Positions 7,113 through 37,386 of a DNA stretch of 64,000 nucleotides are shown here, in pieces. Made by a program: the position numbers and the translations under genes. The notes beneath the pieces are model-generated. The model ran no database searches. It saw only the letters and a list, made by a program, of their open reading frames with translations, and was not told where the DNA came from. Position 1 is the stretch's first letter. The number at the start of each line of letters is the position of its first letter. Origin of the DNA: Altererythrobacter sp. B11 (lineage in GTDB: Bacteria; Pseudomonadota; Alphaproteobacteria; Sphingomonadales; Sphingomonadaceae); the NCBI RefSeq assembly GCF_003569745.1, contig NZ_AP018498.1, positions 1,277,001-1,341,000 of the forward strand, given 5' to 3'.

Positions 7113-8057
7113 CTAATGCGCGTGCCGCGCCAGCCGCCACTCGCGGGGGGAGGCGCCGTATTTCTGCCGGAAGCAGCGCGTGAAATAGGCGCTGTCGTTG
7201 AAGCCATGGGCAAAGGCGATGTCGGTGATCGTCGCGCCCGGCTCTGCGATCAGCCGCTCCGCCGCGCGCTTCAGCCGACGCTCCAGGATGGCTGCCGAAG
7301 GCGTGGTGCCGGCGCGGGCGAACAGGTTCTGCACCGTACGCACGGAGGTGCCGAGTTCGGCCGCGATGGAACCGGTGTTCAGATCGGGGTCGGCGAGGCC
7401 CGCGTCGACCACCGCGCAGGCCTGCCGCCACAGCGGGGCATCCTGCCGCCCTCCATCGCTGGTGCCGTGGCGCGCGTCGCGGATCGCCATGGCGGCCAGA
7501 TCGTAGAACACGCGGCTGATCCCCTCGCTCCATTCGGGATCTTCGCTGGCAGCCTCCGCCTGGCGCCAGAGCGACAGGAGGAAATCGTTGAACACGCGCG
7601 CGGCCGGCGAGTGGCCCGAGAGGCGCTGGGCCAGCGCGTCGTCCAGATCGGGAATCCGCTCCTGCAGGGCCTGCCGCGGGAATTCCACCACCATCATCTC
7701 GTGGGCCGACAGGTCGAAGTGGTAGGGGCTGTGCGGCGATCCGATCACGAAGTCGCCCGGTTCCAGCCGCGTTTCGCGCCCCCGTTGGGTGTGCTGCCCG
7801 GTTCCGCGCCACTGCATGTGCATGATCACCCGCTCTTCCACCCGGTCGAGCGGGCGGCGACCGACCGAGGCCTGGACGGAGCGCGTGCGGATCATGTCGA
7901 GATCGCCGACACTCCAGCTCCACATCTCGCCTTCGAAACGGTGGCGTTCAGCATTCACGAAGGTGCCGCAGAACACCTCGTCGGCCACGGTATTCCAGTA
8001 TCGCAGCCGATCATCGACAGCGATGCCGGACGTTGCGAATCTTGCGATCACGGCCAT
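7113..8057 (-). CDS. AraC-family transcriptional regulator
   Basis: This 314-aa protein starts at ATG 8057 (GGGAG about 10 nt upstream), not at the more distal in-frame start 13 codons earlier. The N-terminal half is a cupin-like ligand domain of the AraC_binding_2 type (EPGDFVIGSPHSPYHF). The C-terminal ~100 residues carry two helix-turn-helix motifs: IAAELGTSVRTVQNLFARAG, then ITDIAFAHGFNDSAYFTRCF, the classic AraC signature. It is flanked by an MFS transporter and a TonB receptor on the same strand and probably regulates this catabolic cluster in response to the substrate or an intermediate. Confidence 0.92.
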   Translation of the reverse strand: MAVIARFATSGIAVDDRLRYWNTVADEVFCGTFVNAERHRFEGEMWSWSVGDLDMIRTRSVQASVGRRPLDRVEERVIMHMQWRGTGQHTQRGRETRLEPGDFVIGSPHSPYHFDLSAHEMMVVEFPRQALQERIPDLDDALAQRLSGHSPAARVFNDFLLSLWRQAEAASEDPEWSEGISRVFYDLAAMAIRDARHGTSDGGRQDAPLWRQACAVVDAGLADPDLNTGSIAAELGTSVRTVQNLFARAGTTPSAAILERRLKRAAERLIAEPGATITDIAFAHGFNDSAYFTRCFRQKYGASPREWRLARHAH

Positions 8058-8129
8058 TGGACATTCACTCCCTGCAACAGACCTCCCCCTGTGCATTTCA
8101 TGTCCCGCCCTGGCGGCGTGTGCCGGCGC

Positions 8130-9380
8130 CTAGGCGACCAGCGGATAGAGCCCGCGCTTCTCCCTTACTCCCGGCGCACTTTCCTCCAGCAGAAGCGAGA
8201 GGGCGAAGGCGGCCATCGTCAACACCATCAGGAACCACATCACCGAACGCAGGCCATAGGCATCGGCCAGCGCACCGGCGAGCGTGGGGCTGAACACCCC
8301 GCCCAGCACCTCGCCGATCCCCATCACAATGCCCGTCAGCGTCGCGGTCAGCCGCGGATCGACGCTTTCCGCGGGGACCGTGGCCATGAACAGCGGGAAA
8401 ATCCCGTTCAGCGACCAGCCGAAATAGAACAGCACCGCCAACACGAACCAGCTGCCGCCCTGATAATAGAGCGCGGCCAGCGGCAGGATCATGCCCATCA
8501 GGCACACGGCGATGAAGGTGGGCTTGCGGCCGATCTGGTCCGAAATCCACGGCACCAGGAAGGCATTCACCCCGGCCGAGATACCCAGCGCCGCCATGAT
8601 CCAGCCCATTACCGCTTCATCGAAGCCGGCCAGCTGGGTGAGATAGAGCGGCATGAAGGCCCAGGTCACCACCAGGAAGGAGACCAGCAGCACAGCGATC
8701 AGCGCGCACAGCAGCACGTTGCGGTTGGCCAGTGCCCGCGTGATCGGCACCCGCTCCCGCTCCGGCTGCCCTTCGGTCTCCAGCCCCTTGGGCGGTTCGC
8801 GCAGGGTGAACCAGATCAGCGCTGCGGAGATCAGGCCCGGCACGGCGGCGAAGAAGAACCCCTCGCGCCAGCTGAAGGCGATGGCGATCGGCACGAGGAT
8901 CAAGGGGGCGGCGGTGGAGCCGAGCAGGTTGGAGCCGAGGTTCTGGCCGACGCCCATGGCCGTGCCGCGCCACTTCGGCTTCACTTCGGATACGATCATC
9001 GCATGGCTGATCGGCATCACGCCGCCTTCGGCCGCGCCCATCAGCAGCCGCGCGCCCAGCAGCAGCAGGAAGCTGCCGGCGATGCCGGACAGCATGGAGC
9101 AGAGGCAGAACAGCACGGTGGCGCCCACCACAATCGGCTTGCGCGAACCCAGCTTGTCCGACAGCGGCCCCACGGTGAGGCCGGACAGTGCCCAGGTGAG
9201 CGACAGGCCGGAGGACAGCAGGCCGATCTGCGTGTTGGTGAGCTGCATGTCCTCCTGAATGAAGGGCATCATGAAATTGGCCGCCTGCCGGTCGAAGAAC
9301 AGGATGCCGAAGTTCAGGCTCAGCAGCAGGGTGAGCCAGGTCTGGTAGCCGTCGCCGCGGCGGGTGGGCACGATGGTCAT
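8130..9380 (-). CDS. MFS transporter
   Basis: This 416-aa protein has about 12 hydrophobic segments. The MFS signature between TM2 and TM3 reads GPLSDKLGSRKP, and a second copy between TM8 and TM9 reads WISDQIGRKP. A conserved acidic residue in TM1 (FFDRQAANF) recalls the anion:cation symporter/aromatic acid:H+ symporter groups. It lies 13 nt after the VOC gene frame and 72 nt before the AraC gene. It likely carries the cluster's substrate across the inner membrane after TonB-dependent uptake. The substrate is not determined by sequence. Confidence 0.92.
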   Translation of the reverse strand: MTIVPTRRGDGYQTWLTLLLSLNFGILFFDRQAANFMMPFIQEDMQLTNTQIGLLSSGLSLTWALSGLTVGPLSDKLGSRKPIVVGATVLFCLCSMLSGIAGSFLLLLGARLLMGAAEGGVMPISHAMIVSEVKPKWRGTAMGVGQNLGSNLLGSTAAPLILVPIAIAFSWREGFFFAAVPGLISAALIWFTLREPPKGLETEGQPERERVPITRALANRNVLLCALIAVLLVSFLVVTWAFMPLYLTQLAGFDEAVMGWIMAALGISAGVNAFLVPWISDQIGRKPTFIAVCLMGMILPLAALYYQGGSWFVLAVLFYFGWSLNGIFPLFMATVPAESVDPRLTATLTGIVMGIGEVLGGVFSPTLAGALADAYGLRSVMWFLMVLTMAAFALSLLLEESAPGVREKRGLYPLVA

Positions 9381-9393
9381 CGCCGGGCCGCCC

Positions 9394-9939
9394 TTACAGG
9401 AACGACCGCACGGGATCGCTGCCGTCCCAGCCGCGCGATGCCTCCCAGAAGCGGGTGAAGGTGCCGTCCATGCCCGGCGTCACCGGCAGCAGTTCCAGAA
9501 AGCCCCAGTCCGCGCCGGTACCGTTGTCCAGATAGACCACTTCCCCACCCGTGGGCACGGCAGCGCGGAATGCCTCGTGATAGCCGCGAGCCTGATAATC
9601 GCGGCTGGCGGCGTCCACATCCGCGCAGGCGATGCCGAAATGGTGGAAGCCATAGCCGCGCCGGGCGATGGTTTCCTGATAGACGCTGGGGTGGCTGTCC
9701 AGCGGCTGGATCAGTTCGATCAGCATATGGCCGGCGAAGCCCATGGCGATGGTGATGTCGGCGCGGCTTTCCTCGCCGCGATAGGTCTGGCCCGGCACCA
9801 GGAAATGATCGAGAATGAAGAAGGGGCCGGCGCGCATGTCCGCTATCCAGCGGTCCACCGCCTCCCGCAAATCCGGCACCACGAAGGCCGTTTGTGCCAC
9901 GCCGCCCATTGGCTGGCCATAGCCGAGCACACCAGTCAT
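9394..9939 (-). CDS. VOC (glyoxalase-fold) family protein
   Basis: This 181-aa protein belongs to the vicinal-oxygen-chelate superfamily. The start is ATG 9939, since GGAGG lies 8 nt upstream inside the longer open frame. Two babbb modules are visible: the first begins with TAFVVPDLREAVDRW, the second with GYGFHHFGIACADVDAA, where HHFG supplies a typical metal-ligand His. The end carries an acidic residue in WGFLELLP. Such proteins include dioxygenases, epimerases and lyases. It is first in the minus-strand catabolic run and divergent from the aldolase-family gene, so an enzymatic role there is plausible. Confidence 0.85.
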   Translation of the reverse strand: MTGVLGYGQPMGGVAQTAFVVPDLREAVDRWIADMRAGPFFILDHFLVPGQTYRGEESRADITIAMGFAGHMLIELIQPLDSHPSVYQETIARRGYGFHHFGIACADVDAASRDYQARGYHEAFRAAVPTGGEVVYLDNGTGADWGFLELLPVTPGMDGTFTRFWEASRGWDGSDPVRSFL

Positions 9940-10055
9940 CCATTCCCTCCCGGCCGGCACTTCGCCGGTCTCGCTGCATGGCTCGCCAATCGGGGCGACA
10001 AAGTCAATCGCCGCGTGTTAGGACCGGCCAAGAACAGACGGGAAAGGAGCGCGAA
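9940..10055. promoter_or_regulatory. Divergent promoter region, VOC gene / aldolase-family gene
   Basis: This 116-nt gap separates two divergent starts and must hold both promoters. A minus-strand TTGACT (10007-10002) is present, but no good -10 box lies at the right spacing. Strong Shine-Dalgarno sequences flank both sides. Confidence 0.4.
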
Positions 10056-10811
10056 ATGGCCACGCAGCCGAGGCAGCAGGAGAGCTGCAGCGAAGCCGAA
10101 TGGACCGCGCGGCAGGAGCTTGCCGCCTGCTATCGCATCTTCGACATGATGGGCTGGTCCGAATCGATCTACAACCACATCACCCTGCGCGTGCCGGGGG
10201 AAGAAGCCTTCCTCATCAATCCCTATGGCCTGTTGTGGAGCGAGGTGACGGCTTCCAACCTCGTCAAGATCGACAGCCAGGGGAACAAGCTCTGCGCCAG
10301 CCCTTGGCCGGTGAACAAGGCCGGCTTCACCCAGCATGGCCTGTTCCACGGCGCGCTCGATTGGGCGCATGCCATTGTCCACACGCATACGCCGGATGCC
10401 ATGGCCGTATGCAGCAGTGCGGACGGGCTGACGCCGACCAATTTCTACGCCTGCTTCTTCGCGGGCAATGTGGCCTATCACGATTTCGAAGGCATCACCG
10501 TGCGCGCGGAGGAGGGGGAGCGGCTGCTGCGCAATCTGGGTGACAAGCGCGTGCTGATGCTGCGCAACCACGGGCCGGTGGTGCTGGGGGAGACGCTCTA
10601 CGAGATGTTCTTCAACTATTACATGCTCCAGCGCGCCTGCGAGATTCAGGTAAAGACCTGCGCCCTGGGCCGGCCGGTCACCGTGCCGCCGGAGGTGGTG
10701 GCGGTGCACCAGCGCGACCGTGACGAGGTGGCGCTGAAGGATTTCGGCCGCGCCGACTTTGAAGCCTGGGTGCGCAAGCTGGACCGCATGGACACGAGCT
10801 GGCGCGAGTAG
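10056..10811 (+). CDS. Class II aldolase/adducin family protein
   Basis: This 251-aa protein starts at ATG 10056, with AAGGAG 8 nt upstream. It has the class II aldolase/adducin fold features: SIYNHITLRVP near the N terminus, the zinc-binding H-x-H in AIVHTHTPDAMAV, and RNHGPVVLGET with the third histidine. Family members are Zn-dependent L-fuculose-phosphate-type aldolases, decarboxylases or non-enzymatic adducin-like proteins; this length and sequence are common for catabolic decarboxylase/aldolase genes. It is 13 nt upstream of the [2Fe-2S] gene and divergent from the VOC gene. Retro-aldol cleavage in the neighbouring pathway is an inference. Confidence 0.88.
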   Translation: MATQPRQQESCSEAEWTARQELAACYRIFDMMGWSESIYNHITLRVPGEEAFLINPYGLLWSEVTASNLVKIDSQGNKLCASPWPVNKAGFTQHGLFHGALDWAHAIVHTHTPDAMAVCSSADGLTPTNFYACFFAGNVAYHDFEGITVRAEEGERLLRNLGDKRVLMLRNHGPVVLGETLYEMFFNYYMLQRACEIQVKTCALGRPVTVPPEVVAVHQRDRDEVALKDFGRADFEAWVRKLDRMDTSWRE

Positions 10812-22620: not shown

Positions 22621-22744
22621 GCGGTTTCGGCCGGACGGGCGGGTGCGAGGGGCGCCCGCCATGCCGGCATCCGCGCTGCCCGCCCCCGGCGCTTATCGGA
22701 GGGGCAACATTCCCAAGCTCGCGCTAATGCGATAGGCGGTGTTC

Positions 22745-25015
22745 ATGTCCGCCGCCGCAGCCGCCCGCTCCATCCTGACCCAGCTTCACGAGGTGATGGC
22801 TTCCCGGCTTCACGCGCAGGGCAAGCTGAACCAGGTCGTGGATATCATCGGCGAATCGCTGCACAGCGAAGTCTGCTCCATCTACCTGCTGCGCGAAGGG
22901 CTGCTGGAACTGTTCGCCACGCGCGGCCTGAACCAGGCGGCGGTGCATGTCACCAAGCTGGCCGTGGGCGCCGGCCTGACGGGCACGATCGCCCAGAATA
23001 TCGAGACGCTGAACTTGGCCGAAGCGGCCACCCACCCCGAATTCCAGTATCGCCCGGAAACGGGGGAGGAGAAGTTCCATTCCTTCGCCGGCGTGCCGAT
23101 CGTGAGGCGCGAGCGGGCCATCGGTGTGCTCACCGTCCAGCACACCGAGCCGCGCCGCTATGAAGAGGTGGAGATCGAGGCGCTGCAGACCGTGGCCATG
23201 GTGCTGGCGGAGCTGATTCACAATGCCGGGCTGGTCGATGGCGAAGGCACGGGCGAGGGGGCGGAGCACCATTCGGGGCAGGAAGTCCTTGGCGGGCTGC
23301 AACTGGTGAAAGGCCTCGCCTGCGGGCAAGCGGTGTTCCACCAGCCGCGCATCGTGATCGAACAGACCGTGGCGGAGGATATCGAGGCCGAGCGCCAGCG
23401 CGTCTATATCGCCTTCGACAAGATGCGCGAGCAGATCGAGCAGATGTCGGGCCAGGCGGAGTTCGGTGGCGGGGGCGAGCACGAGCAGGTGCTCGAGACC
23501 TACAAGATGTTCGCCTATGACGAAGGGTGGAGCCGCCGGATCAACGAGGCGATCGATTCCGGCCTCACCGCTGAGGCAGCGATCGAGCGCGTGCAGCAGC
23601 GCACCCGCATGCGCATGCGCGAGATCCAGGATCCGCTGCTGGCGGACCGGATGCACGATCTGGAGGATCTCTCCAATCGCCTGCTGCGCATCGTCTCCGG
23701 CCAGCTGGGCACGGCCGCCAGCGTGGGGCTGCGCGGCGATTCCATCCTGATCGCCAAGAACCTCGGCCCGGCGGAGCTGCTGGAATATGACAAGCGCCGC
23801 CTGAAGGGCGTGGTGCTGGAGGAAGGCTCGCTCACCGCGCATGTCGTGATCGTCGCCCGTGCCATGGGCGTGCCGGTGATCGGGCGCGTGCGCAATGCGC
23901 GCGGCCTGATCCGCGAAGGCGATCAATTGCTGCTGGATGGCGATCACGCGCAGCTGACCATCCGCCCCGGCCCCGGTGCGGTGGAGGCCTTCGAGGCGCG
24001 TTCCGCCCGCAACCGCGAAAAGCAGGCCGCCTATGCCCGGCTGCGCGATGTGGAGCCGTTCAGCCGCGACGGGGAACGGGTGGAGGTGATGATCAACGCG
24101 GGCCTGCGCGATGACATGCCGATGCTTAGCCTCACCGGGGCGGACGGCATCGGCCTGTTTCGCACGGAGTTCCAGTTCCTGGTGTCCGCCACGCTGCCCC
24201 AGCGCGACCGGCAGACGCGGCTCTATCGCGATGTGCTGGATGCGGCGGGGGACAAGCCGGTGATCTTCCGCACGGTGGACATCGGCGGCGACAAGTCGCT
24301 GCCCTATCTGCGCAGCGAAAGCAGCCGCGAGGACGAGAACCCGGCCATGGGCTGGCGCGCGCTGCGCCTGGCGCTGGAACGGGAAGGCCTGCTGAAGGCG
24401 CAGGCCCGCTCGCTGCTGGAAGCGGCGGCGGGGCGCACGCTCAGCGTCATGTTCCCCATGGTTTCGGAACCGTGGGAGTTCGAAGCCGCGCGTGACGTGT
24501 TCGAAAGCCAGGTGGCCTTCCTGCGGCGCCGCAAATACAAGCTGCCCGAAGCGATCCGCTATGGGGTGATGCTGGAAGTGCCCGCGCTGGCGGAGATGCT
24601 GGACCAGCTGATGCCGCGCTTGTCGTTCATCTCGGTGGGCACCAATGACCTTACCCAGTTCCTCTTCGCAGCGGATCGGTCCAATCCCAAGCTGGCGGAA
24701 CGCTATGACTGGCTGAGCCCGGCGATCCTGCGCTTCCTGCGCCGGGTGGTGATGGCCACCGTGGGACAGAATGTGACGCTGGGCGTGTGCGGCGAAATGG
24801 GTGGCCGGCGGCTGGAGGCGATGGCGCTGCTCGGCCTCGGCATCCGGCGCCTGTCGATCACGCCCGCTGCGGTGGGGCCGATCAAGGAACTGGTACGCAA
24901 GCTGGACATGGCGGAAATCGGCGCGGCGATGGGCGGCTGGCTGGCCAACCCGCCGGCGGACCTGCGCGGCACCATGCACAAATGGGCGATTGAGCGCGGG
25001 ATCGAGGTGGAATAA
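22745..25015 (+). CDS. ptsP: PEP-protein phosphotransferase PtsP (EI-Ntr)
   Basis: This 756-aa protein has an N-terminal GAF domain (about 15-165, LNQVVDIIGESLHSEVCSIY) followed by the enzyme I core. The phosphorylated His lies in GSLTAHVVIVARAMGVP near residue 365. PEP-binding motifs are FRTVDIGGDKSLPY, SVGTNDLTQFLFAADR and the catalytic Cys in GVCGEMGG. It phosphorylates NPr, then EIIA-Ntr, linking carbon/nitrogen state to regulation. ATG 22745 is preferred over GTG 22739. It is monocistronic here; ptsO/ptsN are not in the window. Confidence 0.95.
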   Translation: MSAAAAARSILTQLHEVMASRLHAQGKLNQVVDIIGESLHSEVCSIYLLREGLLELFATRGLNQAAVHVTKLAVGAGLTGTIAQNIETLNLAEAATHPEFQYRPETGEEKFHSFAGVPIVRRERAIGVLTVQHTEPRRYEEVEIEALQTVAMVLAELIHNAGLVDGEGTGEGAEHHSGQEVLGGLQLVKGLACGQAVFHQPRIVIEQTVAEDIEAERQRVYIAFDKMREQIEQMSGQAEFGGGGEHEQVLETYKMFAYDEGWSRRINEAIDSGLTAEAAIERVQQRTRMRMREIQDPLLADRMHDLEDLSNRLLRIVSGQLGTAASVGLRGDSILIAKNLGPAELLEYDKRRLKGVVLEEGSLTAHVVIVARAMGVPVIGRVRNARGLIREGDQLLLDGDHAQLTIRPGPGAVEAFEARSARNREKQAAYARLRDVEPFSRDGERVEVMINAGLRDDMPMLSLTGADGIGLFRTEFQFLVSATLPQRDRQTRLYRDVLDAAGDKPVIFRTVDIGGDKSLPYLRSESSREDENPAMGWRALRLALEREGLLKAQARSLLEAAAGRTLSVMFPMVSEPWEFEAARDVFESQVAFLRRRKYKLPEAIRYGVMLEVPALAEMLDQLMPRLSFISVGTNDLTQFLFAADRSNPKLAERYDWLSPAILRFLRRVVMATVGQNVTLGVCGEMGGRRLEAMALLGLGIRRLSITPAAVGPIKELVRKLDMAEIGAAMGGWLANPPADLRGTMHKWAIERGIEVE

Positions 25016-27037: not shown

Positions 27038-27983
27038 GGCCTCGCCGGGCGGGGCAACGGCACGCTTTGCCGACGCTCTCGCCCAGCTATGGCCGGGGGA
27101 AGGGCGCATCGGCCTCGCCGTATCGGGCGGGGTGGACAGCCTCGCCCTGCTATTGCTGGCAGAGGCCGCAATTCCTGGCCGCTTCGAAGTCGCCACCGTC
27201 GATCACGGCCTGCGGGCTGAGGCGGCCGGCGAATGCGCCATGGTGGCCCGCCTCTGCGCAGGGCGAGGCATTGCCTGCGCCGTGCTGCCCGTCAGCGTGG
27301 CCTCCGGCAATCTGCAGGCGAGCGCCCGCGCGGCCCGCTATGCGGCGCTGAGTGCCTGGGCGCGGGAGCGGGGACTGGGCGCTCTCGCCACGGCGCATCA
27401 TGCGGATGACCAGGTGGAAACCGTGCTCATGCGCCTCGCACGGGGGAGCGGGGTCGCCGGGCTGGCGGGCATCCGCGCGCGCGGGGTGGTGCCGGGATCG
27501 GACCTGCCGCTGCTGCGCCCGCTGCTGGGCTTCGACCGGGCGGAACTGGAGAGCATCGTGGCCGCCGCGGGGCTCGATCCGGTGCGCGATCCCAGCAATC
27601 TGGACGAGCGGTATGATCGGGTGCGCCTGCGCCGCTGGCTGGCGGAAAACCCGCTGATCGGGGCGGAGGCGGTGCGGGCCAGCGCCGCCCATTGCGCCGA
27701 TGCCGATGCGGCTCTCGTCTGGGCGGCGGAACGCGAATGGGCCGAGCGGGTGGAGCGGGTGGAAGGGGGCTTGCGCTATCGCCCCGCCGCGCCGCGCGCC
27801 GTGGCCCTGCGGATGCTGGAACGCGCCGTGGCGGAGCTGGGGGGCAGTGCGCGCGGCGGCGCGCTGGCGGCGATGCTGTCGGCGCTTGAGCGCGGCGAAA
27901 GCGCCAATGCCGGCGGCGTGCTGGCGCGGGCGGAACGGGGCGTTTGGCTGTTTACTGCCGAACCGCCCCGGCGCGGCACTTAG
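27003..27983 (+). CDS. tilS: tRNA(Ile)-lysidine synthase TilS
   Basis: This 326-aa enzyme converts C34 of tRNA-Ile(CAU) to lysidine using ATP and lysine. The PP-loop SGGVDS lies at 41-46. VATVDHGLR, ATAHHADDQVETVLMRL, RPLLGFDR and DPSNLDERYDRVRLR are conserved catalytic-domain motifs. The C-terminal domain is shorter than in E. coli TilS, as in many alphaproteobacteria. AAGGA lies 5 nt before ATG 27003, inside cpoB. The cpoB-tilS order is common; ftsH often follows but is absent here. Confidence 0.95.
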   Translation: MSATADGSTAAEASPGGATARFADALAQLWPGEGRIGLAVSGGVDSLALLLLAEAAIPGRFEVATVDHGLRAEAAGECAMVARLCAGRGIACAVLPVSVASGNLQASARAARYAALSAWARERGLGALATAHHADDQVETVLMRLARGSGVAGLAGIRARGVVPGSDLPLLRPLLGFDRAELESIVAAAGLDPVRDPSNLDERYDRVRLRRWLAENPLIGAEAVRASAAHCADADAALVWAAEREWAERVERVEGGLRYRPAAPRAVALRMLERAVAELGGSARGGALAAMLSALERGESANAGGVLARAERGVWLFTAEPPRRGT

Positions 27984-28684
27984 CCCGCCAGCGGCGTGCC
28001 GATGCCCGCGTTCACGCCCTTTGTGATGATGACCCGGTCGCCCTTGCTCGCCTCGGCATAGAGGCGCGAGACGAAATCGTCCGGCGCCGACACGCAGCCA
28101 TGGCTGGCATAGCCGTTCTGCACTGTGGAGCCGCCGTGAATGGCGACCCCGTCCCAGGTGAGCCGCATGGTCCAGGGCATCGGGGCGTCGCCGTATTTCT
28201 CGGAGATATTGTGCCGTTCCTTGGTCAGGATCGGAAACGTGCCCAGCGGAGTGGGATGGTCGGGCGTGCCGATCAGCACCGCCGCCGCGCCGATTTCATA
28301 ACCGTCGCGGAAGACGGAGAGCACGCGCGCATCGAGATCGACGGTGATGACCAGCGGCCCCTGCGGCACGCCTTCATCATCCCAATGCCATTCGCCATAT
28401 TTGATCGGGCCGGCTATCGGCAGGATGCGCTTGATGACGAGCGGAGCATCCTCGACCGGCGCAGCGGCAATCGCCTCGGGCGCAGCTTCGGCCGGGGCGG
28501 GGGCTGGCGCGGTGACGCCGTCATCCGCCTGCGCCAGCACATCCTCCGGTTGCAGCCAGGCATCGGGATCGACCGTTTCCGGCTGTGCAGGCGCGCGCCC
28601 GGCCACGATGGCCGAACCGATCAGCGCCACCGCCAGCAGGGTGGGGCCACCGATCCATTTGAGCGCTGCGATCATGGCCCGCAT
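27980..28684 (-). CDS. L,D-transpeptidase (YkuD domain)
   Basis: The 234-aa product has an N-terminal membrane anchor or signal (TLLAVALIGSAIVAG), a Pro/Ala linker and a C-terminal YkuD domain. The catalytic motif is H183-GGSTVQNGYASHGC197VS, with the nucleophile Cys197. It would make 3-3 peptidoglycan crosslinks or attach proteins to the wall in the periplasm. The stop overlaps that of tilS (convergent). A perfect 8-bp inverted repeat sits 6 nt upstream of its start (see the separate entry). Confidence 0.9.
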   Translation of the reverse strand: MRAMIAALKWIGGPTLLAVALIGSAIVAGRAPAQPETVDPDAWLQPEDVLAQADDGVTAPAPAPAEAAPEAIAAAPVEDAPLVIKRILPIAGPIKYGEWHWDDEGVPQGPLVITVDLDARVLSVFRDGYEIGAAAVLIGTPDHPTPLGTFPILTKERHNISEKYGDAPMPWTMRLTWDGVAIHGGSTVQNGYASHGCVSAPDDFVSRLYAEASKGDRVIITKGVNAGIGTPLAG

Positions 28685-28766: not shown

Positions 28767-31544
28767 TCAGCCGTGGGCGCCGAACTGGTTGGCGATGGTG
28801 GTGGAGATGCGCAGCGAGAGCGCATAGGCACGGTCGATCGGATCGATGAAATCGCGCCGGATCGATTCGTAGCCTTCCGATCCGCGATCCGGGAAGTCGG
28901 TCGGCTCGGACAGATCGAAATCGCCGATCTTCGGAAAATGCGTGGGGAAAGTGCGCCGCAACTGCTTCAGCGCATCCTCGATCCGCAGGGTGAAGACCAT
29001 CTCCAGCACATCCTCGCGCGAGATGTCGTTGGCGCGGCTGAACAGCGGGATGGAGACGGCGCGGATGAACATGTGCTGGAACAGCGCCAGCCGCAGCGCC
29101 TGGCACACGCCGATCGCCCGGCGCACCTGCTCCCGGTCTTCCAGCGGGCTCTCGTTCGGCACCAGCGCCAGCAAGCGGTGCAGCTTCAGCGCATCGACCC
29201 GGAGGCGCGAGGCGAGACGGCGGAACACGCCGATGCGATCATCCTTGATGAGATATTCGGCCAGCGCCCCGCAGGGCCCGGACAAATGGCTTTCCGTGCC
29301 GCGATAGGGGCGACTGGCCCAATAGGCGGAATTGAACAGCTCGCCATAGGCGGCCACCGTCTTCACGCTGGCCAGCGCATTGGCCGCGCGGGCAAGGCGG
29401 AGCAACTGCCGCCCGCGCTCGCTGTCGCGCAGCAGGGCGGCCAGCTCCTCGTAATTGCCGTCCGCCGCCGTGCCGATGCCGGCGATCACATTCACCGGAT
29501 AGCCCAGCTGCTGCATGATCGCATTGTGCGGGATCGCGCGGATCTGCCGCAGGCTCATCTCGCGGTCGGCCGAAAGGTCCGACTGGCGGCGCGATACGCG
29601 GCTGCCCGTGGAATTGAGCATTCCCAGGCCGAAGGCGGTGATCGCCCGGCTGTAGGTGCGACTTTCCAGATGGGCATGCTGGTGATCGCGAATGGCGCGA
29701 TAGAAATCGAGACTCAGATCGGTGCGGCGATAGAAGGGATCGGGCGGCGCATCGGGATCGGTATGGGCGGGGCGCTGCTGCACGATCCGCGTCAGCGTGG
29801 CCAGCGCGAGTTCGGGCGTGGCGAAGAACAGATAGCCGTCGCCGCCCTGGAAGCTCACCTCTGGTTCCAGCCGGATGCCGGCGCGCACGAAGCGGCGCCG
29901 CGCCCAGGGGCTGAGCGGCCAGGCCAGCCGGTCGGCGAAGCTGGTGGGATGCGCGCCGCGCCCCATGCTCTCGCCATGTGTATCGAAGATCAGCGCCGCC
30001 ACATCGGTGAGGCCGTTGGCCTCCATCGCCAGCGCCAGCCGGCCCTGCAGCCGCTCGATCGCCAGGCTGGCGGGGATCTGCCCGACGAACCGCCCAGCGT
30101 CGGAAAAGCCCGTCTGGATCGCCACCCGGCCGCGCCGGCGGGCGTAGGTGCGGTATTCCTCCTCCGCCAGCAGCGCGTCGAGGAAACGGCCGCCGTGTTC
30201 CAGCGCGTTTTCGGTTTCGAACAGGGGGGAGATATCCACCTTGTCCTCCACCCCGAACAGGCGCGCGAAGTAGAGGGCGGCCAGCACGGTTGCCGGCTCC
30301 TCGCACTCCGCGATCAGCATGCGGATCGGCGCATCGGCATCGACATGCTGCAGGATCTGCGCCATGGCCAGGAACTGGCGGATTGCGGTGCTGCTTTCGA
30401 TGGCCAGCGCGGCGAAATTGCTGCGCACCGGCTTCACCTGCTCGATCGCGCGGCGCAAATGGACGATCGCCCCCTTGCTGGACAGGTCGATGGCGCTGTC
30501 CGGGTCGATCCGTCGGCGGATCGCATTGTGCAATTGCTTGGAATTCACCCGGAAGTGAATCCAGCCCATGCCCAGCCCGTCCGCCCGCATGGCAGCGGCC
30601 AGGGTCTTGAGCTGCACCCCGCGTTCCCCGCCGACTTCGCCCGCCTCCTGCTCCAGCGCGGCGATGTGGCGCTTCAGCGACAGCAGCTGGCGCGGATCAT
30701 GCGCGGTCAGGCGGTTCGCGGCGACGGACAGCGCCGCGGGATCGGACAGGTCGGCGGCAAAGTCCTGCGCCCGGTCCGCGGCATAGGCGGCGGCGGGCTG
30801 CAATTCGCGCAGCAGCGGATGGTCCGCGTCGATGGCTTCCAGTGCGGCGACATAGCGCGCCAGCCGCTGAGCCTTTTCGGCCAGGCGAAAGCCCATGGAA
30901 TTGGCCCAGGTAATGTCCGTGCGGCCATCCATGTCATAGCCGACCCAGCTGGCGAAGCGGAACGGCAGCGGGGCGAAGCTGCCCCATTCCTCCGGCCATT
31001 TCTGCTGCGCGGTGGCGACGGCCTGCGCCACGATGCGATCGCGCGCATCCTGCGCATGGGCGATCGCCTTCATCGCTTCGGTATGTTCATAGGCCAGCGT
31101 GATCGGCGGGCGATCGGCGGAGGCGGCGCATACGCCCGCGCCGATGGCATCGTCGCTGCTGGCCGCCTGCGCCACTGCCTCGGTCTGTCCGGGGGAGAGC
31201 AGGAAGGTGGGATGGGCGGTGAACACGGCGTGCAGCTGCGGATGTTCCCAGTGCGCCCGGAAGCGGGCGAAATCCTCGCCTCCCAGTTCCTCCGCCAGCG
31301 CGGCGTCATTTGCGGCGGGCGTCACGGGGGCCACCATCTTTCGCAGCCGCTCGGCCCGCGCCGCCATCGCGTCGCATTCCAGCTCCTCGATCAGCCTCTC
31401 GCAATCCGCCAGCGTCAGCTCCCCGCTTTCCAGCAGGCGCGAAAGATCGAGCGAGAGCTGGAAGACAGGATTGAACAGCGGCGTTTCCGCCGTGCGCTGG
31501 TGGAGGGCCTGCAGCCTCTCGGTGAGCTGGGCGACCGTCTTCAT
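28767..31544 (-). CDS. Diverged phosphoenolpyruvate-carboxylase-family protein
   Basis: This 925-aa protein aligns end to end with PEP carboxylase by motif order, but key positions differ. TAHPTE reads TAHPTF (109-114). The lysine loop (SDSAKDAG in E. coli) reads SDAGRFVG (481-488), with Arg for Lys. FHGRGGTVGRGG reads FDTHGESMGRGA (520-531), losing the first His and Arg but keeping Arg529. PLFET and SRPYRG are recognisable. It is the last gene of the Entner-Doudoroff operon, overlapping eda by 4 nt. The frame is open 219 codons further upstream, but that part is antisense-like reading through eda. It may be an anaplerotic enzyme with changed chemistry or a regulatory pseudoenzyme. Confidence 0.82.
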   Translation of the reverse strand: MKTVAQLTERLQALHQRTAETPLFNPVFQLSLDLSRLLESGELTLADCERLIEELECDAMAARAERLRKMVAPVTPAANDAALAEELGGEDFARFRAHWEHPQLHAVFTAHPTFLLSPGQTEAVAQAASSDDAIGAGVCAASADRPPITLAYEHTEAMKAIAHAQDARDRIVAQAVATAQQKWPEEWGSFAPLPFRFASWVGYDMDGRTDITWANSMGFRLAEKAQRLARYVAALEAIDADHPLLRELQPAAAYAADRAQDFAADLSDPAALSVAANRLTAHDPRQLLSLKRHIAALEQEAGEVGGERGVQLKTLAAAMRADGLGMGWIHFRVNSKQLHNAIRRRIDPDSAIDLSSKGAIVHLRRAIEQVKPVRSNFAALAIESSTAIRQFLAMAQILQHVDADAPIRMLIAECEEPATVLAALYFARLFGVEDKVDISPLFETENALEHGGRFLDALLAEEEYRTYARRRGRVAIQTGFSDAGRFVGQIPASLAIERLQGRLALAMEANGLTDVAALIFDTHGESMGRGAHPTSFADRLAWPLSPWARRRFVRAGIRLEPEVSFQGGDGYLFFATPELALATLTRIVQQRPAHTDPDAPPDPFYRRTDLSLDFYRAIRDHQHAHLESRTYSRAITAFGLGMLNSTGSRVSRRQSDLSADREMSLRQIRAIPHNAIMQQLGYPVNVIAGIGTAADGNYEELAALLRDSERGRQLLRLARAANALASVKTVAAYGELFNSAYWASRPYRGTESHLSGPCGALAEYLIKDDRIGVFRRLASRLRVDALKLHRLLALVPNESPLEDREQVRRAIGVCQALRLALFQHMFIRAVSIPLFSRANDISREDVLEMVFTLRIEDALKQLRRTFPTHFPKIGDFDLSEPTDFPDRGSEGYESIRRDFIDPIDRAYALSLRISTTIANQFGAHG

Positions 31545-32155
31545 GGGCGCAACGCAGCCGCTTCGCGGGCCAGCGCCTCGATCGCCGCCTTGTCCGGCGG
31601 GCCGGCGGGGGAGACCCAGCTGCCGCCCACGCACAGCACCGGTTTCAGCGCCAGCCAGTCCGGCGCATTGGTGGCGGAAACGCCGCCCGTGGGGCAGAAA
31701 CGGCATTGGCCGAAGGGCGCCGCCAGCGCCTTCAACGCCGGAATGCCGCCCGCGGCCATGGCCGGGAAGAACTTGAAATGGGTGAGGCCGAGATCGAGCC
31801 CCCGCATGATGTCGCCCGCATTGGCAATGCCGGGCAGGAAGGGCACGCTCGATTCCACCGCCGCCTTGCCCAGCCGTTCGGTGAGGCCGGGGGAGACGAT
31901 GAATTCGCTGCCCGCGTCCAGTGCGGCGTCCAGCTCGGCCGGATTGGTCACCGTGCCGGCGCCGACGATGGCGCCTTCCACCTGCTTCATCGTGCGGATC
32001 GCATCCAGTGCCGCCGGGGTGCGCAGCGTCACTTCCAGCACGCGCAGCCCGCCCGCCACCAGCGCCTCGGCTAGCGGCAGCGCATGGTCCACGTCTTCCA
32101 CGACCAGCACCGGGATCACCGGTGCGGTCAACATGATCGTTTCGATCGCGCTCAT
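31541..32155 (-). CDS. eda: KDPG/KHG aldolase Eda
   Basis: This 204-aa TIM-barrel aldolase cleaves 2-keto-3-deoxy-6-phosphogluconate to pyruvate and glyceraldehyde-3-phosphate. PVIPVLVVEDVDHALPLAEAL, LEVTLRTPAALDAI with the catalytic Glu, VGAGTVTNP, and THFKFFPA with the Schiff-base Lys are all present. CPTGGVSATNAPDWL matches the phosphate-binding loop. It overlaps glk and the PEPC-like gene by 4 nt on either side, so translation is coupled. Confidence 0.97.
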   Translation of the reverse strand: MSAIETIMLTAPVIPVLVVEDVDHALPLAEALVAGGLRVLEVTLRTPAALDAIRTMKQVEGAIVGAGTVTNPAELDAALDAGSEFIVSPGLTERLGKAAVESSVPFLPGIANAGDIMRGLDLGLTHFKFFPAMAAGGIPALKALAAPFGQCRFCPTGGVSATNAPDWLALKPVLCVGGSWVSPAGPPDKAAIEALAREAAALRP

Positions 32156-33150
32156 ACGGCGAATCCTTTGTGATGCTGGTGGGCAAAGGCAGCCACGGCA
32201 CCGAACAGGCCCGGCTGCGGATGGGTGATGAGCTTCACCGGGATACCGGCCATCATCTGTTCGTACCGCCCCTTGAAGCGGAAGCGGCCGGCGAAGCCCG
32301 ATCGCGGCAGCAGATCGCGCAGGCGATAGCCGAGCCCGCCGGCGATCACCACCGCGCTGGCACCGTGGGCCAGGGCGAAATCGCCCGCCACGCCGCCCAG
32401 CGACTGGCAGAAGCGATCGACCGCCGCGCTGGCCAGCGCATCTTCCCGGTCCAGCCCGCGCTGCCAGATCTGGCGGTCTTCCAATTCGGGCACGGCGCGC
32501 TTCTCCAGCGCGGCCAGCGCCTGATAGATCGGCACGATGCCGGGGCCGGCCACCACTCGCTCCGCCGAGACGCGGCGGTGCTGCTGGCGCAGCCGCGCCA
32601 GGATCAGGTCGTCGATATGGTCCACCGGCGCGAAATCCACATGGCCGCCCTCGGTCGCCTGCACGTGATAGCCGGCGGCGAAGCGGTGGAAATGGGCGAC
32701 CCCAAGGCCTGTGCCGGGGCCGATCACGCTGATCGTGCCGCGCGTGGGCAGCGGCACGTCCGGCCCGGCCAGATGGGTGAACTGATCCGCCGGCGCCTGC
32801 GCCACGGCGTGGGACACGGCTGCGAAATCATTGACCAGCGTGACCTTTTCCAGCCGCAGCTGGTCCTCCAGCGCATCGGTGTGGAGCACCCAGCTGTTGT
32901 TGGTCATGCGGATCGTCTCGCCGGTGATCGGGGCGGCGATGGCGATGGCGGCAATCGGCGGGGGCGGGGTGGTGCAGCGGCGGGCGAATTCCTCCCACGC
33001 GGTTTGCAGGCTGGCGAAATCGCCCGTCTTCAGCGTCACCGGCTCTTCTAGCGTGATTGCGCCGTTAGCGGCGATTTCCGCCAGCGCGAAGCGCGCGTGC
33101 GTGCCGCCGATGTCCAGCGAGACGAGCCTGGTGACGGAGCTTTGCGTCAC
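32152..33150 (-). CDS. glk: Glucokinase
   Basis: This 332-aa ROK-distant bacterial glucokinase (E. coli Glk type) phosphorylates glucose with ATP. The phosphate loop [12 protein letters not shown] is at the N terminus. [18 protein letters not shown] and [11 protein letters not shown] are the substrate-site motifs, and [11 protein letters not shown] is the adenosine motif. It overlaps edd and eda by 4 nt. A kinase in this operon fits uptake of free glucose by a non-PTS route. Confidence 0.95.
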
Positions 33151-34976
33151 AAGCCGGCCATCGCAAGCATGGCCGAGCCACCCTTCTCCGCCTCATCCGC
33201 ATTGGCGCGGAACATGGCGAACAGCTCACGCCCCATGCCCTGCGCCGCCGGCGGCGGGGTGGCGGGCTCGCGCGCGGCGAGGTCGGCCGTGGTGGACAGG
33301 GTGCCGTCCACCGCGGAAAGGCGCACCACGTCGCCATCGCGCAGATAGGCCAACGGGCCCCAATTGCCGCTCATATCCCCCAGCGCTTCCGGGCTCGCGT
33401 GGATGGCGGCGGGCACCTTGCCGCTGGCACCGGACATGCGCCCGTCGGTGACGAGCGCGACCTTGTAGCCACGATCCTGCAGCACGCCCAGCGGCGGGGT
33501 CAGCTTGTGCAGTTCGGGCATGCCGTTGGCGCGCGGCCCCTGGAAGCGGACGACCACCACCACATCGCGGTCCAGCTCCCCGGCGGCGAAGGCCTTGGCC
33601 ACCTGCACCTGATCGTCGAACACGCGGCAGGGCGCCTCGATCTCCCAGCGTTCGGGGTCCACCGCGCTGGTCTTGAAGCAGGCGCGGCCGAGATTGCCCT
33701 GCACCAGCCGCATGCCGCCATCGGCCTGGAACGGATTGGCGGCGGGGCGCAGCATCGCTTCGTCCCCCGAAGGGCCGGCCTCGCGCCAGGCGAGGTTCTC
33801 ACCGTCCAGCCAGGGCTCGCTGCCGTAGGCCGTGAGGTCGTCCGCCGCCACGGTCACGATGTCGCGATGGGCAAGGCCCGCATCCAGCAGTTCGCGGATC
33901 ACGAAGCCCATGCCGCCGGCGGCGTGGAAATGGTTCACGTCTCCCGCGCCATTGGGATAGACGCGGCTCAGCAGCGGCACGGCATGGCTCAGCTCGGCCA
34001 GATCCGCCCAGTCGATCTGCACGCCGGCAGCGCGCGCAAAGGCGGGGATATGGATCGCGTGATTGGTCGATCCGCCGGTGGCCAGCAGGCCCACGGCGGC
34101 GTTGACCACCGCCTTTTCATCCACGCATTGCGCCAGCGGGCGATAATCGTCCCCCTCGCGCGTGATCGCGGCCAGCCGGTGGACTGCGGCGCGGGTCAGC
34201 GCCTGGCGCAGCGGCGTGCCGGGCTGGATGAAGGCCGCGCCGGGGAGGTGCAGACCCATCATCTCCATCATCATCTGGTTGGAATTGGCCGTGCCGTAGA
34301 AGGTGCAGGTGCCGGCGGAATGATAGCTGCGGCTCTCGCTCTCCAGCAGTTCCGCGCGCGTCGCCTTGCCTTCGGCATAGAGCTGGCGGACCTTCTGCTT
34401 TTCCTTGTTGGCGATGCCGCTGGGCATGGGGCCACTCGGCACGAAGATGGTCGGCAACCAGCCGAAGCGCAGGCCGCCGATCAGCAGGCCGGGCACGATC
34501 TTGTCGCAAATGCCCAGCATGGCAACGCTGTCATACATGGCATGACTTAAACCGACCGAGGCTGCCAAAGCGATCACGTCGCGGCTGAACAGCGACAGCT
34601 CCATGCCGTCCGCCCCCTGCGTCACCCCGTCGCACATGGCGGGGGTGGCGCCGGCCACCTGCGCGGTGGCGCCCACTTCGCGGGCAAAGACCTTCATCTG
34701 CGGCGGATAGGCGCCATAGGGCTGATGGGCTGAGATCGTGTCGTTATAGGCGCTGATGATGCCGATGTTCGGCCCGCGCCGGGTGGCGATGCTGTCCTTG
34801 TCCTCCCCGGCGGCAGCAAAGCCGTGGGCGAGGTTGGAGCAGGGCAGCGCGACATTGCGGTCGCGGTGCCGGTCGCCCTCGATCGCCATCAGCTCCAGAT
34901 AGGCCGCGCGGCTCTTGCGCGAACGGTCGATGACGCGATCGGTCACCCGTTCGATGGCGGGGTGGAGCCGGGTCAT
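33147..34976 (-). CDS. edd: Phosphogluconate dehydratase Edd
   Basis: This 609-aa [4Fe-4S] dehydratase (IlvD/Edd family) turns 6-phosphogluconate into KDPG. Cluster cysteines lie in [18 protein letters not shown] and [31 protein letters not shown] and [18 protein letters not shown] are conserved C-terminal motifs. ATG 34976 is preferred to GTG 34982 because GGAAGGAAG lies at the better distance. The gene is 42 nt downstream of zwf; no pgl lies between. Confidence 0.97.
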
Positions 34977-35018
34977 GTGCACTTCCTTCCATTGCGCCTC
35001 GTGGGGGAGGCGAAAAAC

Positions 35019-36452
35019 TCATTCATGCCAGCTGACGCCGTCGCGTTCGGCCAGCGCGATCGCCGCGCTCGGCCCCCAGCTTCCCGCGCTGTAGGTGCGC
35101 GGCGTCAGGCCTTCCTTGCGCCATTGTTCGCGGATGGCATCCACCCAGGCCCATTGCGCCTCCACCTCGTCGCGCCGGACGAACAGCGTCTGGTCGCATT
35201 CGATCAGGTCCAGCAGCAGCCGTTCATAGGCGATGCGGCGATGCACGCCGGTGAAGGCGTCGGGCATGGCGATTTCCAGCGGCACGGCGCGCAGGCTCAT
35301 CCCCTCGCGGTCGAGGCCCGGCACCTTGGCCATCAGCGAAAGCGTGATGTTCTCTTCCGGCTGGATCCCGATCAGCAACTGGTTGGGCACGGTGCGCGTG
35401 CCGCTGAAGATCGAATGGGGGATGCAGCGAAACTGGACGAGGATTTCCGTCCGCCGCTTGGGCAGCCGCTTGCCGGTGCGCAGGTAGAAGGGCACGCCCT
35501 TCCACCGCCAATTGTCGACATGGGCCTTCAGCGCCACGAAGGTTTCGGTGTCGCTTTCGCGGCCCAGTTCCTCGTCATAGCCGGGGACGATCTGCCCGCC
35601 GGTGGCGCCGGCGCGATACTGGCCGGTCACGCTTTCGCCGGGGCCGATGGGGCGCAGTGCGCGCAGCACCTTCACCTTCTCGTCACGCACGGCGCTGGAA
35701 TCGAAGCTGGTCGGCGGTTCCATGGCCACCAGCGCCAGCAGCTGCAGCATGTGGTTCTGCACCATGTCGCGCAGCGCGCCCGCCTCGTCATAGAAATCGA
35801 CGCGGCTTTCCAGGCCCACCGTTTCGGCCACGGTGATCTGCACATGGTCGATATGCTGGGAATTCCACAGCGGTTCGAACATGATGTTGGCAAAGCGCAG
35901 CGCGATCAGGTTCTGCACCGTCTCCTTGCCCAGATAGTGATCGATGCGGAAAATGCGGCTTTCGGGGAAGGCCGCGGCCACCGCGTCGTTGATCTCCCGG
36001 CTGGAGGCGAGATCGATGCCGAGCGGCTTTTCCAGGCTGATCCGCGCGCCTTCGCCGGTCAGCCCCGCGCCCTGCAAACCCTTGATCGTGGTTTCGAACA
36101 GGCTGGGCGCGGTGGACAGGAAGATCGCCAGCTTCTCCCCCGGGCGCGCGGCCTTTTCCGCCACCGCCTTGAAGCCGGCCGGGTCTTTCACGTCCAGCGG
36201 CTGGTAGCTCAGCCGGTTGAGGAAATCGGCCATGCCGCTGCGCCGGTTGGCGGGCATGAACTTTTCCAGCGCGGCGCGGGCGAAATTGCGGAACTCCGCA
36301 TCGCTCATCTCCGAACGGGCGGTGCCCACGATGCGCAGATCGGGGTCCAGCAAACCATCGGAATGCAGCGCGCACAGCGAAGGCAGCAGCATCCGCTGGG
36401 CAAGATCGCCCGTGGCGCCGAACAACAGCAGCGCATCGGCCGTCGAACTCAT
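35019..36452 (-). CDS. zwf: Glucose-6-phosphate dehydrogenase Zwf
   Basis: This 477-aa enzyme begins the operon. The start is ATG 36452 with GAGAGG about 8 nt upstream; a longer open frame 5' of it is not coding. The Rossmann motif LLFGATGDLAQRML, the substrate motif RIDHYLGKETVQN with the active-site His and Lys, and VEKPLGIDL (here SLEKPLGIDLA) are typical. It makes 6-phosphogluconolactone and NAD(P)H. The 94 nt upstream, to the transglutaminase gene, should contain the operon promoter. Confidence 0.97.
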   Translation of the reverse strand: MSSTADALLLFGATGDLAQRMLLPSLCALHSDGLLDPDLRIVGTARSEMSDAEFRNFARAALEKFMPANRRSGMADFLNRLSYQPLDVKDPAGFKAVAEKAARPGEKLAIFLSTAPSLFETTIKGLQGAGLTGEGARISLEKPLGIDLASSREINDAVAAAFPESRIFRIDHYLGKETVQNLIALRFANIMFEPLWNSQHIDHVQITVAETVGLESRVDFYDEAGALRDMVQNHMLQLLALVAMEPPTSFDSSAVRDEKVKVLRALRPIGPGESVTGQYRAGATGGQIVPGYDEELGRESDTETFVALKAHVDNWRWKGVPFYLRTGKRLPKRRTEILVQFRCIPHSIFSGTRTVPNQLLIGIQPEENITLSLMAKVPGLDREGMSLRAVPLEIAMPDAFTGVHRRIAYERLLLDLIECDQTLFVRRDEVEAQWAWVDAIREQWRKEGLTPRTYSAGSWGPSAAIALAERDGVSWHE

Positions 36453-36546
36453 GAAAAAGCCTCTCCCACAATGGAAACGAATTAGGCCGACCCTGCCCGC
36501 AGAACCCTTATGCTGCACCGCCGCAGGCCATGCGGCAAGAGAAAGA

Positions 36547-37386
36547 TCAGCCGTTCGCCCGCACGGAAACGGTCTTTTCGCCAAAGCGCGCTTCGCCGAA
36601 ACTGGTCATGAAGCTGACATCGGCCGCATCGCGGCCCACGCCGATCTTGGCCGTCTCCGCAGGGTCCGCCATGCCGGTGGCGTCCACGATCTGCCAGCTT
36701 CCACCGCCGGCAATGGTGGGATCGCGCAGGAACACTTCGGCCACGGCATGGAAATCGGGCGGCTCCACGCCGGGGGCATAGGCGCTGACATAGCGGGCCG
36801 GGATGGCCGAGGCGCGGGCGAGCGAGATCACCACATGGGCATAGTCGCGGCAGATGCCGCGCCGCTCCACGAAGCTGTCCAGCGCGGTGGTGTGGGTATC
36901 GCTGCTGCCCGGTTCGTAGCGGAAGCGTTCCGCCACCCAGTCGCGGATCGCGGCGATGCGCGCGCCGCCCTGCAGGCCGCCGAACTCCGCCTCCACGAAG
37001 GGCTGGAACGGTGCGCCGGGGCAATAGCGGGAATCGAACAGATATTGCACCGTGTCCGCCGGCAGCAGATGCGGATCGAGCCCGCCCAGGGTGGCGAGAT
37101 CGGCAGTGATGCGGCGCGGCTCCACCCGCGCGGCATAGCGGACCTCGATCGGGCCGGTGGCGCGCAACCAGATACGTTCCCCGATCCCGTCATGCGCCGC
37201 GATACGCGCCACATGATCCGCCTCGCTCATCGTGGTGGAGGTTTCCAGGATTTCCTGCTCGGGGATCGCCGCCGCCTCGAACTGGAGGAGGACGTCGCCG
37301 ACGCCTTCGAGGGCGAAGGAGAATTGCGTTTCGATTTCGATAGCCATGGGCTGGCAATGCTCCGCCGCCGGGGAGTTTCCGGTCAT
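36547..37386 (-). CDS. Transglutaminase-like cysteine protease family protein
   Basis: This 279-aa protein has a beta-rich N-terminal domain and a transglutaminase core with the triad Cys (RRGICRDYAH), His (PDFHAVAEVFL) and Asp (IVDATGMAD). Such bacterial proteins are probably peptidases or amidases. The ATG at 37386 overlaps the YjbQ stop (ATGA), suggesting coupling; ATG 37347 (MAIEIETQF) is an alternative closer to usual family starts. The cytoplasmic location is inferred from the lack of a signal peptide. Confidence 0.85.
   Translation of the reverse strand: MTGNSPAAEHCQPMAIEIETQFSFALEGVGDVLLQFEAAAIPEQEILETSTTMSEADHVARIAAHDGIGERIWLRATGPIEVRYAARVEPRRITADLATLGGLDPHLLPADTVQYLFDSRYCPGAPFQPFVEAEFGGLQGGARIAAIRDWVAERFRYEPGSSDTHTTALDSFVERRGICRDYAHVVISLARASAIPARYVSAYAPGVEPPDFHAVAEVFLRDPTIAGGGSWQIVDATGMADPAETAKIGVGRDAADVSFMTSFGEARFGEKTVSVRANG

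Follow-up and report, generated by a model that had tools for sequence, protein, structure and literature searches.

A divergent PEP carboxylase-like protein closes an Entner-Doudoroff operon in Altererythrobacter sp. B11 and is probably a working enzyme

We have analyzed 64,000 nucleotides of the Altererythrobacter sp. B11 genome (contig NZ_AP018498.1, positions 1,277,001 to 1,341,000), which we call the window. It contains an operon of the Entner-Doudoroff (ED) pathway, closed by a gene whose product is related to phosphoenolpyruvate (PEP) carboxylase (PEPC). This protein is probably a working PEP carboxylase (EC 4.1.1.31) whose phosphate loop has been rebuilt and whose regulation has changed, and it would carry out anaplerosis in step with the ED pathway. 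A previous sequence-only reading of this DNA had proposed a 925 amino acid PEPC homologue with changed motifs, and had given no strand. We find an uninterrupted translation on the minus strand, which contains both the TAHPTF motif and the Lys to Arg change. The gene and its motifs are the following:

28767 to 31544, minus strand: PEPC-like protein of a divergent alphaproteobacterial PEPC clade, 925 amino acids plus stop, uninterrupted translation
31203 to 31220, minus strand: TAHPTF, residues 109-114; His111 corresponds to E. coli His138, Phe114 stands in place of Glu141
30090 to 30104, minus strand: SDAGR, residues 481-485; Asp482 corresponds to the metal ligand Asp543, Arg485 stands in place of Lys546
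29955 to 29987, minus strand: FDTHGESMGRG, residues 520-530; Asp521, His523 and Glu525 stand in place of His579, Arg581 and Gly583, Arg529 corresponds to Arg587
29832 to 29855, minus strand: SFQGGDGY, residues 564-571; near-invariant insertion specific to the clade, close to the canonical EQGE strand

In the translation, GFSDAGRFVG corresponds to residues 479-488 and FDTHGESMGRGA to residues 520-531. Positions are given below with E. coli PEPC numbers (His138, Lys546 and so on), except where residues of the window protein itself are named (His111, Asp482 and so on).

The PEPC-like protein matches the PF00311 family of Pfam (PEPcase) with 60.6 bits (E 9.9e-17), above the gathering cut-off of 22.4. 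This is its only match in the Pfam scan: there is none to PF14010 (PEPcase_2), which corresponds to archaeal-type PEPC. Archaeal-type PEPC carries out, in principle, the same reaction. The NCBIfam equivalog for PEPC, NF000584, gives 65.7 bits, which does not reach its cut-off of 815. A profile-profile comparison with ten canonical PEPCs (hhalign) gives 99.7% and an E-value of 3.9e-25 across 623 columns, and the motifs of the two sets line up; the alignment ends at residue 737, and the C-terminal part has been aligned by MAFFT only. The comparison of a predicted structure with E. coli PEPC, suggested in the sequence-only reading, also leads to this enzyme. An AlphaFold2 model based on 32 aligned members (pLDDT 89.7, pTM 0.91) has 1jqn, the E. 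coli PEPC with Mn2+ and the PEP analogue DCDP, as its top solved structure in Foldseek (E 3.2e-20, TM 0.63/0.66, 16% identity), and PEPC appears in all 50 Foldseek rows listed. The predicted fold and the motif order agree with those of canonical bacterial and plant-type PEPC (PF00311; E. coli Ppc, 1FIY/1JQN) over the whole length. In a tree obtained by a quick method, 39 clade members and 12 canonical PEPCs are placed on the two sides of one branch with support 100. The protein probably represents a subfamily of PEP carboxylases of its own within Alphaproteobacteria.

The main alignment compares 40 clade members (the window protein, 10 of its 80 near relatives and 29 wider members, one of them cut by a contig end) with seven canonical PEPCs. 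The metal ligands Glu506 and Asp543 are retained in all 40 members, together with His138, Arg396, Arg587, Arg699, Arg713 and Trp248; the 39 full-length rows all have the C-terminal Gly. On the other hand, the clade differs from canonical PEPC at several positions. Lys546 is replaced by Arg and Arg581 by His in 40/40 members. The His579 column contains Asp (19), Asn (20) or Ser (1), while Gly583 is replaced by Glu in 39 members (Glu525 in the window protein) and by Asp in one. There is also a Phe at the position of Glu141, the SFQGGDGY insertion is almost invariant, and an extra C-terminal part is found. All canonical rows have K, H, R and G at positions 546, 579, 581 and 583, both in this alignment (7/7) and in a second one (10/10).

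The wording of the sequence-only reading suggests a loss of the catalytic His, Lys and Arg altogether. This is true for Lys546, His579 and Arg581, and does not hold for His138, the four arginines and the metal ligands just mentioned. It was right about the motif changes and the operon position, and the combination of Arg, Asp/Asn/Ser and His is a signature of the clade (40/40). A canonical clade with free variation at these positions would have spoken against its interpretation. This is not the case, since Lys546, His579 and Arg581 are retained in the canonical rows and their replacements are fixed in the clade. The change from Lys546 to Arg is a conservative one, and the set of substituted residues is still basic, save for position 579 and the Glu gained at position 583. 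We have found no mutants at these residues in the open-access literature.

We take Arg396, Arg581, Arg713 and Lys546 to be the phosphate contacts of PEPC, and Arg587 to be its bicarbonate contact. In the window protein, Glu443 and Asp482 would hold a divalent metal on which PEP is bound, and the PEP phosphate would be held by a rebuilt basic cluster formed by Arg332, Arg485, His523, Arg649 and Arg669. Bicarbonate placed near Arg529 would attack the phosphate, His111 would deprotonate the resulting carboxyphosphate, and the enolate would be carboxylated to oxaloacetate. In a review (PMC10176493), the PEPC mechanism is described with one Glu and one Asp as ligands of Mg2+, and with a conserved His which deprotonates carboxyphosphate.

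A scan of bacterial genomes detected 319 stretches with relatives, and the best 80 were kept. All of these 80 are uninterrupted, with 920-939 amino acids and 69-81% identity. Where the organism is named, it belongs to Erythrobacteraceae, Novosphingobium or other sphingomonads; two further sources are metagenome-assembled genomes labelled only as Alphaproteobacteria bacterium or similar. Pairwise comparison with seven relatives by a crude counting method gives synonymous distances (dS) of 0.75-1.13, nonsynonymous distances (dN) of 0.13-0.19 and dN/dS of about 0.12-0.23: the clade is under purifying selection. A profile made from 26 members, of the kind proposed in the sequence-only reading, matches 59 of 385 alphaproteobacterial genomes. 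Two of them, G121 and G243, are cross-hits to canonical PEPC and were dropped, while the weak member G375 was kept, which leaves 57. Among 398 Pseudomonadota genomes, every match above 200 bits lies within Alphaproteobacteria. A clade member is found outside this class on a plasmid of Burkholderia pyrrocinia. The clade protein is named PEPC in two of four plasmid records and hypothetical in another, and the fourth has no annotation there. Two candidates were scored per genome in the Pseudomonadota scan and in both class-wide scans, clade and canonical, where a second gene may be missed; every candidate was scored for the PEPC count in the 59 genomes of the window's family.

This distribution, the fixed residues and the intact relatives indicate that the gene is not a decayed copy. 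If this were a canonical PEPC gene in decay, or an assembly error in one, a low equivalog score might be expected, as is the case here, but the best 80 relatives are intact, dN/dS is low and the members form one clade with support 100. This explanation is refuted for practical purposes.

The G375 protein (locus L186, 3220-6273), from an alphaproteobacterium, has GHPVF, YDWDGRTDI, SDSGR and THGE-type motifs in common with the clade, and it reaches 107 bits in the scan with the profile of clade members. Unlike the clade, it retains His at position 579 (FHTHGE), though it also has His at position 581. It is perhaps an intermediate or a sister group. Further PEPC-like groups were observed: PF00311-like open reading frames (ORFs) of about 990-1160 amino acids, with TQHPTN/TAHPTT-type motifs, are found in L181 (G440), L182 (G168), L183 (G068), L185 (G364), L187 (G360) and L189 (G228). 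In G440, two such ORFs adjoin.

The clade type and canonical PEPC tend to exclude each other. In the window's family, 22 of the 59 genomes have the clade type, 31 have canonical PEPC (three of them, G007, G025 and G052, with the gene in pieces), six have neither and none has both; 11.6 genomes with both would be expected if they were independent, relatedness being ignored. In the whole class (385 genomes), the clade type is present in 57, canonical PEPC in 37, and both in a single genome, G339, compared with 5.5 expected when kinship is ignored. The lack of co-occurrence in the family fits with functional replacement.

Full-length pyruvate carboxylase was detected in none of the 22 family genomes with the clade type, in one of the 31 with canonical PEPC and in none of the six with neither. 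Outside the family, it was found in 1/53 clade-type genomes and 3/27 canonical genomes. Of 80 class genomes that lack a PF00311 match, 13 have it. This sampling covers 53 of the 57 clade genomes (G000, G014 and G041 are counted in the family, and G381 was left out), 27 of the 37 canonical class genomes (G339 is counted with the clade) and 80 of the 284 PF00311-less ones. Up to ten candidates per genome were scored in the family and up to seven elsewhere, and a second gene may be missed. The clade is depleted in pyruvate carboxylase, with 1/75 compared to 13/86 in genomes without PEPC (Fisher p 0.0016, kinship ignored); canonical-PEPC genomes are not clearly depleted (4/58 vs the same 13/86, p 0.19). 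Both types of PEPC rarely accompany pyruvate carboxylase, and many genomes live without all three. In the window's genome we have found neither canonical PEPC nor full-length pyruvate carboxylase, and no match for isocitrate lyase or for GTP-type PEP carboxykinase. The proposed enzyme would work mostly in bacteria of this kind, which have neither canonical PEPC nor full-length pyruvate carboxylase.

The gene order zwf-edd-glk-eda-PEPC-like, already noticed in the sequence-only reading with its 4 nt overlap, agrees with the coordinates and with NCBIfam matches. The other genes of the operon are:

31541 to 32155, minus strand: eda, 2-keto-3-deoxy-6-phosphogluconate (KDPG) aldolase; its stop overlaps the start of the PEPC-like gene by 4 nt
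32152 to 33150, minus strand: glk, glucokinase; NCBIfam match
33147 to 34982, minus strand: edd, phosphogluconate dehydratase; NCBIfam match
35019 to 36584, minus strand: zwf, glucose-6-phosphate dehydrogenase; ORF from TTG, a likelier start being the ATG at 36452 (judged by eye)

The first base of the PEPC-like gene is 31544 and the last base of the eda stop is 31541, with ATGA as the overlap. Overlaps of 4 nt are likewise found between edd and glk (GTGA) and between glk and eda (ATGA), while zwf and edd are spaced. All NCBIfam scores are above their cut-offs: 875.6 bits for edd (708.25), 548.7 for zwf (400.6), 240 for glk (225.45) and 250.9 for eda (241). A scan for promoters and terminators gave no signal exceeding that of shuffled sequences. 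Placed at the end of this operon and presumably co-expressed with zwf-edd-glk-eda, the enzyme would tie the supply of oxaloacetate to the ED flux.

Two other ORFs may be mentioned. One at 27980-28684, on the same strand and 82 nt past the PEPC-like stop, resembles by eye an L,D-transpeptidase, to judge from its motif. Another at 22739-25015, about 4 kb from the PEPC-like gene, looks by eye like PtsP (GAF and PEP-utilising domains), also a PEP-handling protein.

The operon is conserved in most near relatives, as the proposed search for co-occurrence with zwf and edd has confirmed. Among the 80 near-relative loci, eda is directly upstream of the PEPC-like gene in 61: 55 have the full order and six have the same order cut by contig ends. 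In another seven, glk precedes the PEPC-like gene and zwf-edd-eda are found further downstream. Two loci (L011 and L036) have too little upstream DNA for synteny, which leaves 78 informative ones. The linkage is strong among sphingomonad relatives; no ED genes were seen next to the clade member in those loci of other families that we inspected. The basic activity is therefore probably not specific for the ED pathway. The new activity on an ED metabolite proposed in the sequence-only reading is possible, though not needed.

Other contexts are seen elsewhere. In a 1-Mb plasmid of Sphingobium sp. TomTYG74 (L122, 6293-11763), a second enolase gene lies two genes upstream of the clade member, which is annotated as hypothetical, and folD (folD2) and purU are nearby. 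The product of enolase is PEP. In all four genomes of one genus, genes similar to sucC-sucD or mtkA-mtkB are directly upstream of the clade member; sucC-sucD have this position also on a Phyllobacterium plasmid, which carries an oxalate/formate antiporter gene as well. The ligase beta subunits score 555 and 501.9 bits, below the cut-off of 604 for malate-CoA ligase. In the Burkholderia plasmid, RraA and D-glycerate dehydrogenase genes are found. Enolase supplies PEP, and malate-CoA ligase would act on the compound formed two steps later. Such contexts therefore suit a PEPC, though the ligases are not clearly of the malate type.

The regulation of the enzyme is probably different from that of canonical PEPC. 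The canonical enzyme binds its inhibitors aspartate and malate by four residues: Lys773, Arg832, Arg587 and Asn881. Arg832 is retained in 39/40 clade members and Arg587 in 40/40. Lys773 is absent in the 40 rows, with a hydrophobic residue or Tyr in 36 of them, and Asn881 is absent in every row; the canonical C-terminal RN(T/S)G is replaced by GAHG or similar. Two of the four ligands are thus gone. Together with the longer C-terminal part, this suggests from the sequence that aspartate/malate feedback is altered or absent. PMC3615186 describes a serine-cycle enzyme of Methylosinus trichosporium OB3b, Ppc1, which has hydrophobic residues at two of the four ligand positions (in E. coli, Lys and Asn), and serine-cycle Ppcs are described there as being of the non-regulated type. 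The clade shows a loss at the same two positions, so that by analogy it may be insensitive to feedback. Ppc1 is probably not a member of the clade, to judge from the residue spacing and the 33% identity to Ppc2 in the published description (PMC3615186).

Other explanations have to be considered. The sequence-only reading had also suggested a pseudoenzyme which would sense PEP, aspartate or acetyl-CoA and control the ED flux. The position in an ED operon and the altered catalytic loops are in agreement with it, but the metal ligands, His138 and the four arginines are invariant in the 40 members, as is the C-terminal Gly in the full-length ones, and dN is much lower than dS. Besides, the ligands which have been lost are those for inhibitors, the reverse of what would be found in a sensor that gave up catalysis, and ED genes adjoin the clade member only among sphingomonad relatives in the loci examined. 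We consider a pseudoenzyme very improbable. Hardly any more credible is a working PEPC devoted mainly to C1, oxalate or glyoxylate assimilation, which Erythrobacteraceae and their relatives would have drawn into the ED operon secondarily. The ligase genes upstream of clade members, the oxalate/formate antiporter gene of Phyllobacterium and the folD and purU genes of Sphingobium point to such a role, which disagrees with the low scores of the ligases and with the ED context in the window operon and in 61 of its 80 relatives. The same neighbours in the four genomes and in Phyllobacterium had first suggested that the clade was the serine-cycle PEPC itself. This was ruled out by the tree, which places the PEPCs of loci L148 and L149 on the canonical side. 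These PEPCs, which are neighbours in the tree and come from G268 and G339, where each adjoins a succinate/malate-CoA ligase pair, have 779 bits with PF00311, compared to 34.8-88.9 for clade members in the same scan. The ligase next to L149 is a true malate-CoA ligase (760.7 bits vs 604), that of G268 being unscored, and the clade member of G339 is a separate gene, L150.

That the PEPC fold serves a different enzyme here is unlikely, and deserves more attention. Such an enzyme would cleave PEP or a similar enol phosphate with another outcome, such as a bicarbonate-dependent PEP phosphatase or the carboxylation of another enol phosphate, and the fixed Arg, His, Asp/Asn and Glu would serve that reaction. 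The fixed replacements, the near-invariant SFQGGDGY insertion, the Phe in place of Glu141, the very long branch to canonical PEPC, the presence of both types in G339 and the location of some members near genes not obviously linked to PEP all agree with this possibility. However, all the metal residues and most of the phosphate and bicarbonate residues are retained. The absence of overlap with canonical PEPC in the 59 family genomes and the scarcity of pyruvate carboxylase point to the same job, and the enolase and succinate/malate-CoA ligase neighbours act immediately ahead of the PEPC step or shortly downstream of it. If it were nevertheless true, tens of alphaproteobacterial genera would have wired a so far unknown non-anaplerotic reaction to central carbon metabolism.

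Several observations weigh against a working PEPC linked to the ED pathway. Arg581 and Lys546 are invariant in canonical rows, so their fixed replacement may mean a different chemistry. The branch between the clade and canonical PEPC has about 7.5 changes per column, in a quick tree which marks the E. coli row as a long one. ED genes are absent from the flanks of 10 of the 80 near-relative loci (one with only 2.5 kb upstream), and ten neighbouring ORFs chosen outside the family are generic, with no common theme; two of them have no match and some are probably wrong frames. The exclusion within the family may reflect one or a few ancestral swaps, G339 carries both types, and six of the 59 family genomes live without PEPC of any kind. 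Among the class genomes without PF00311, 67 of 80 also lack full-length pyruvate carboxylase (49/61 at a completeness of at least 90%). The window's genome has two other possible routes to oxaloacetate: an ATP-type PEP carboxykinase, and a PycB-like carboxyltransferase below the cut-off (302.9 vs 402) with an adjoining biotin carboxylase. A PF02436 (PycB-like) match is present in 7/22 clade-type family genomes. Finally, open-access full texts, with partial coverage, gave no biochemistry or measured activity for any clade member.

Related papers add little to this. A table of PEPC phylogeny in PMC3521007 includes Erythrobacter entries without comment there. PMC2749216 reports PEPC activity in extracts of Roseobacter denitrificans, which has a ppc gene of one type or the other. 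The relevant portions of PMC2680597 and PMC6417678 deal with serine-cycle genes only, and the part of PMC7250832 examined contains nothing on PEPC.

The idea that the clade enzyme is the sole route to oxaloacetate is weakened by the 67 genomes just mentioned, by PEP carboxykinase and by the PycB-like protein. This PycB-like protein lies in locus L126 (G000:C1:1404000-1418000; 5850-8668 and 9156-10193) with the biotin carboxylase and a 345 amino acid ORF similar to the N-terminal part of PEP synthase, possibly a previously unknown carboxylase. Ten of the 59 family genomes have a PF02436 match, which in one case belongs to a full pyruvate carboxylase; five of these ten are among the eight genomes without a match to PF00463 (isocitrate lyase).

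Should the protein have another activity than that of PEPC, the annotation of central-metabolism genes would be wrong for an entire clade. If it does work as a PEPC, there is still a warning: annotations and flux models which name a plain PEPC may rest on a domain match alone. In such a case, two residues invariant in the canonical PEPCs compared here would have been exchanged in nature with the job kept, and the clade would show which properties of the phosphate-binding loop are essential. The enzyme would perhaps be a PEPC free of aspartate/malate feedback, which engineering could make use of. Its activity would, moreover, help to account for the way in which the tricarboxylic acid cycle is refilled in Erythrobacteraceae and their relatives, which have neither canonical PEPC nor full-length pyruvate carboxylase.

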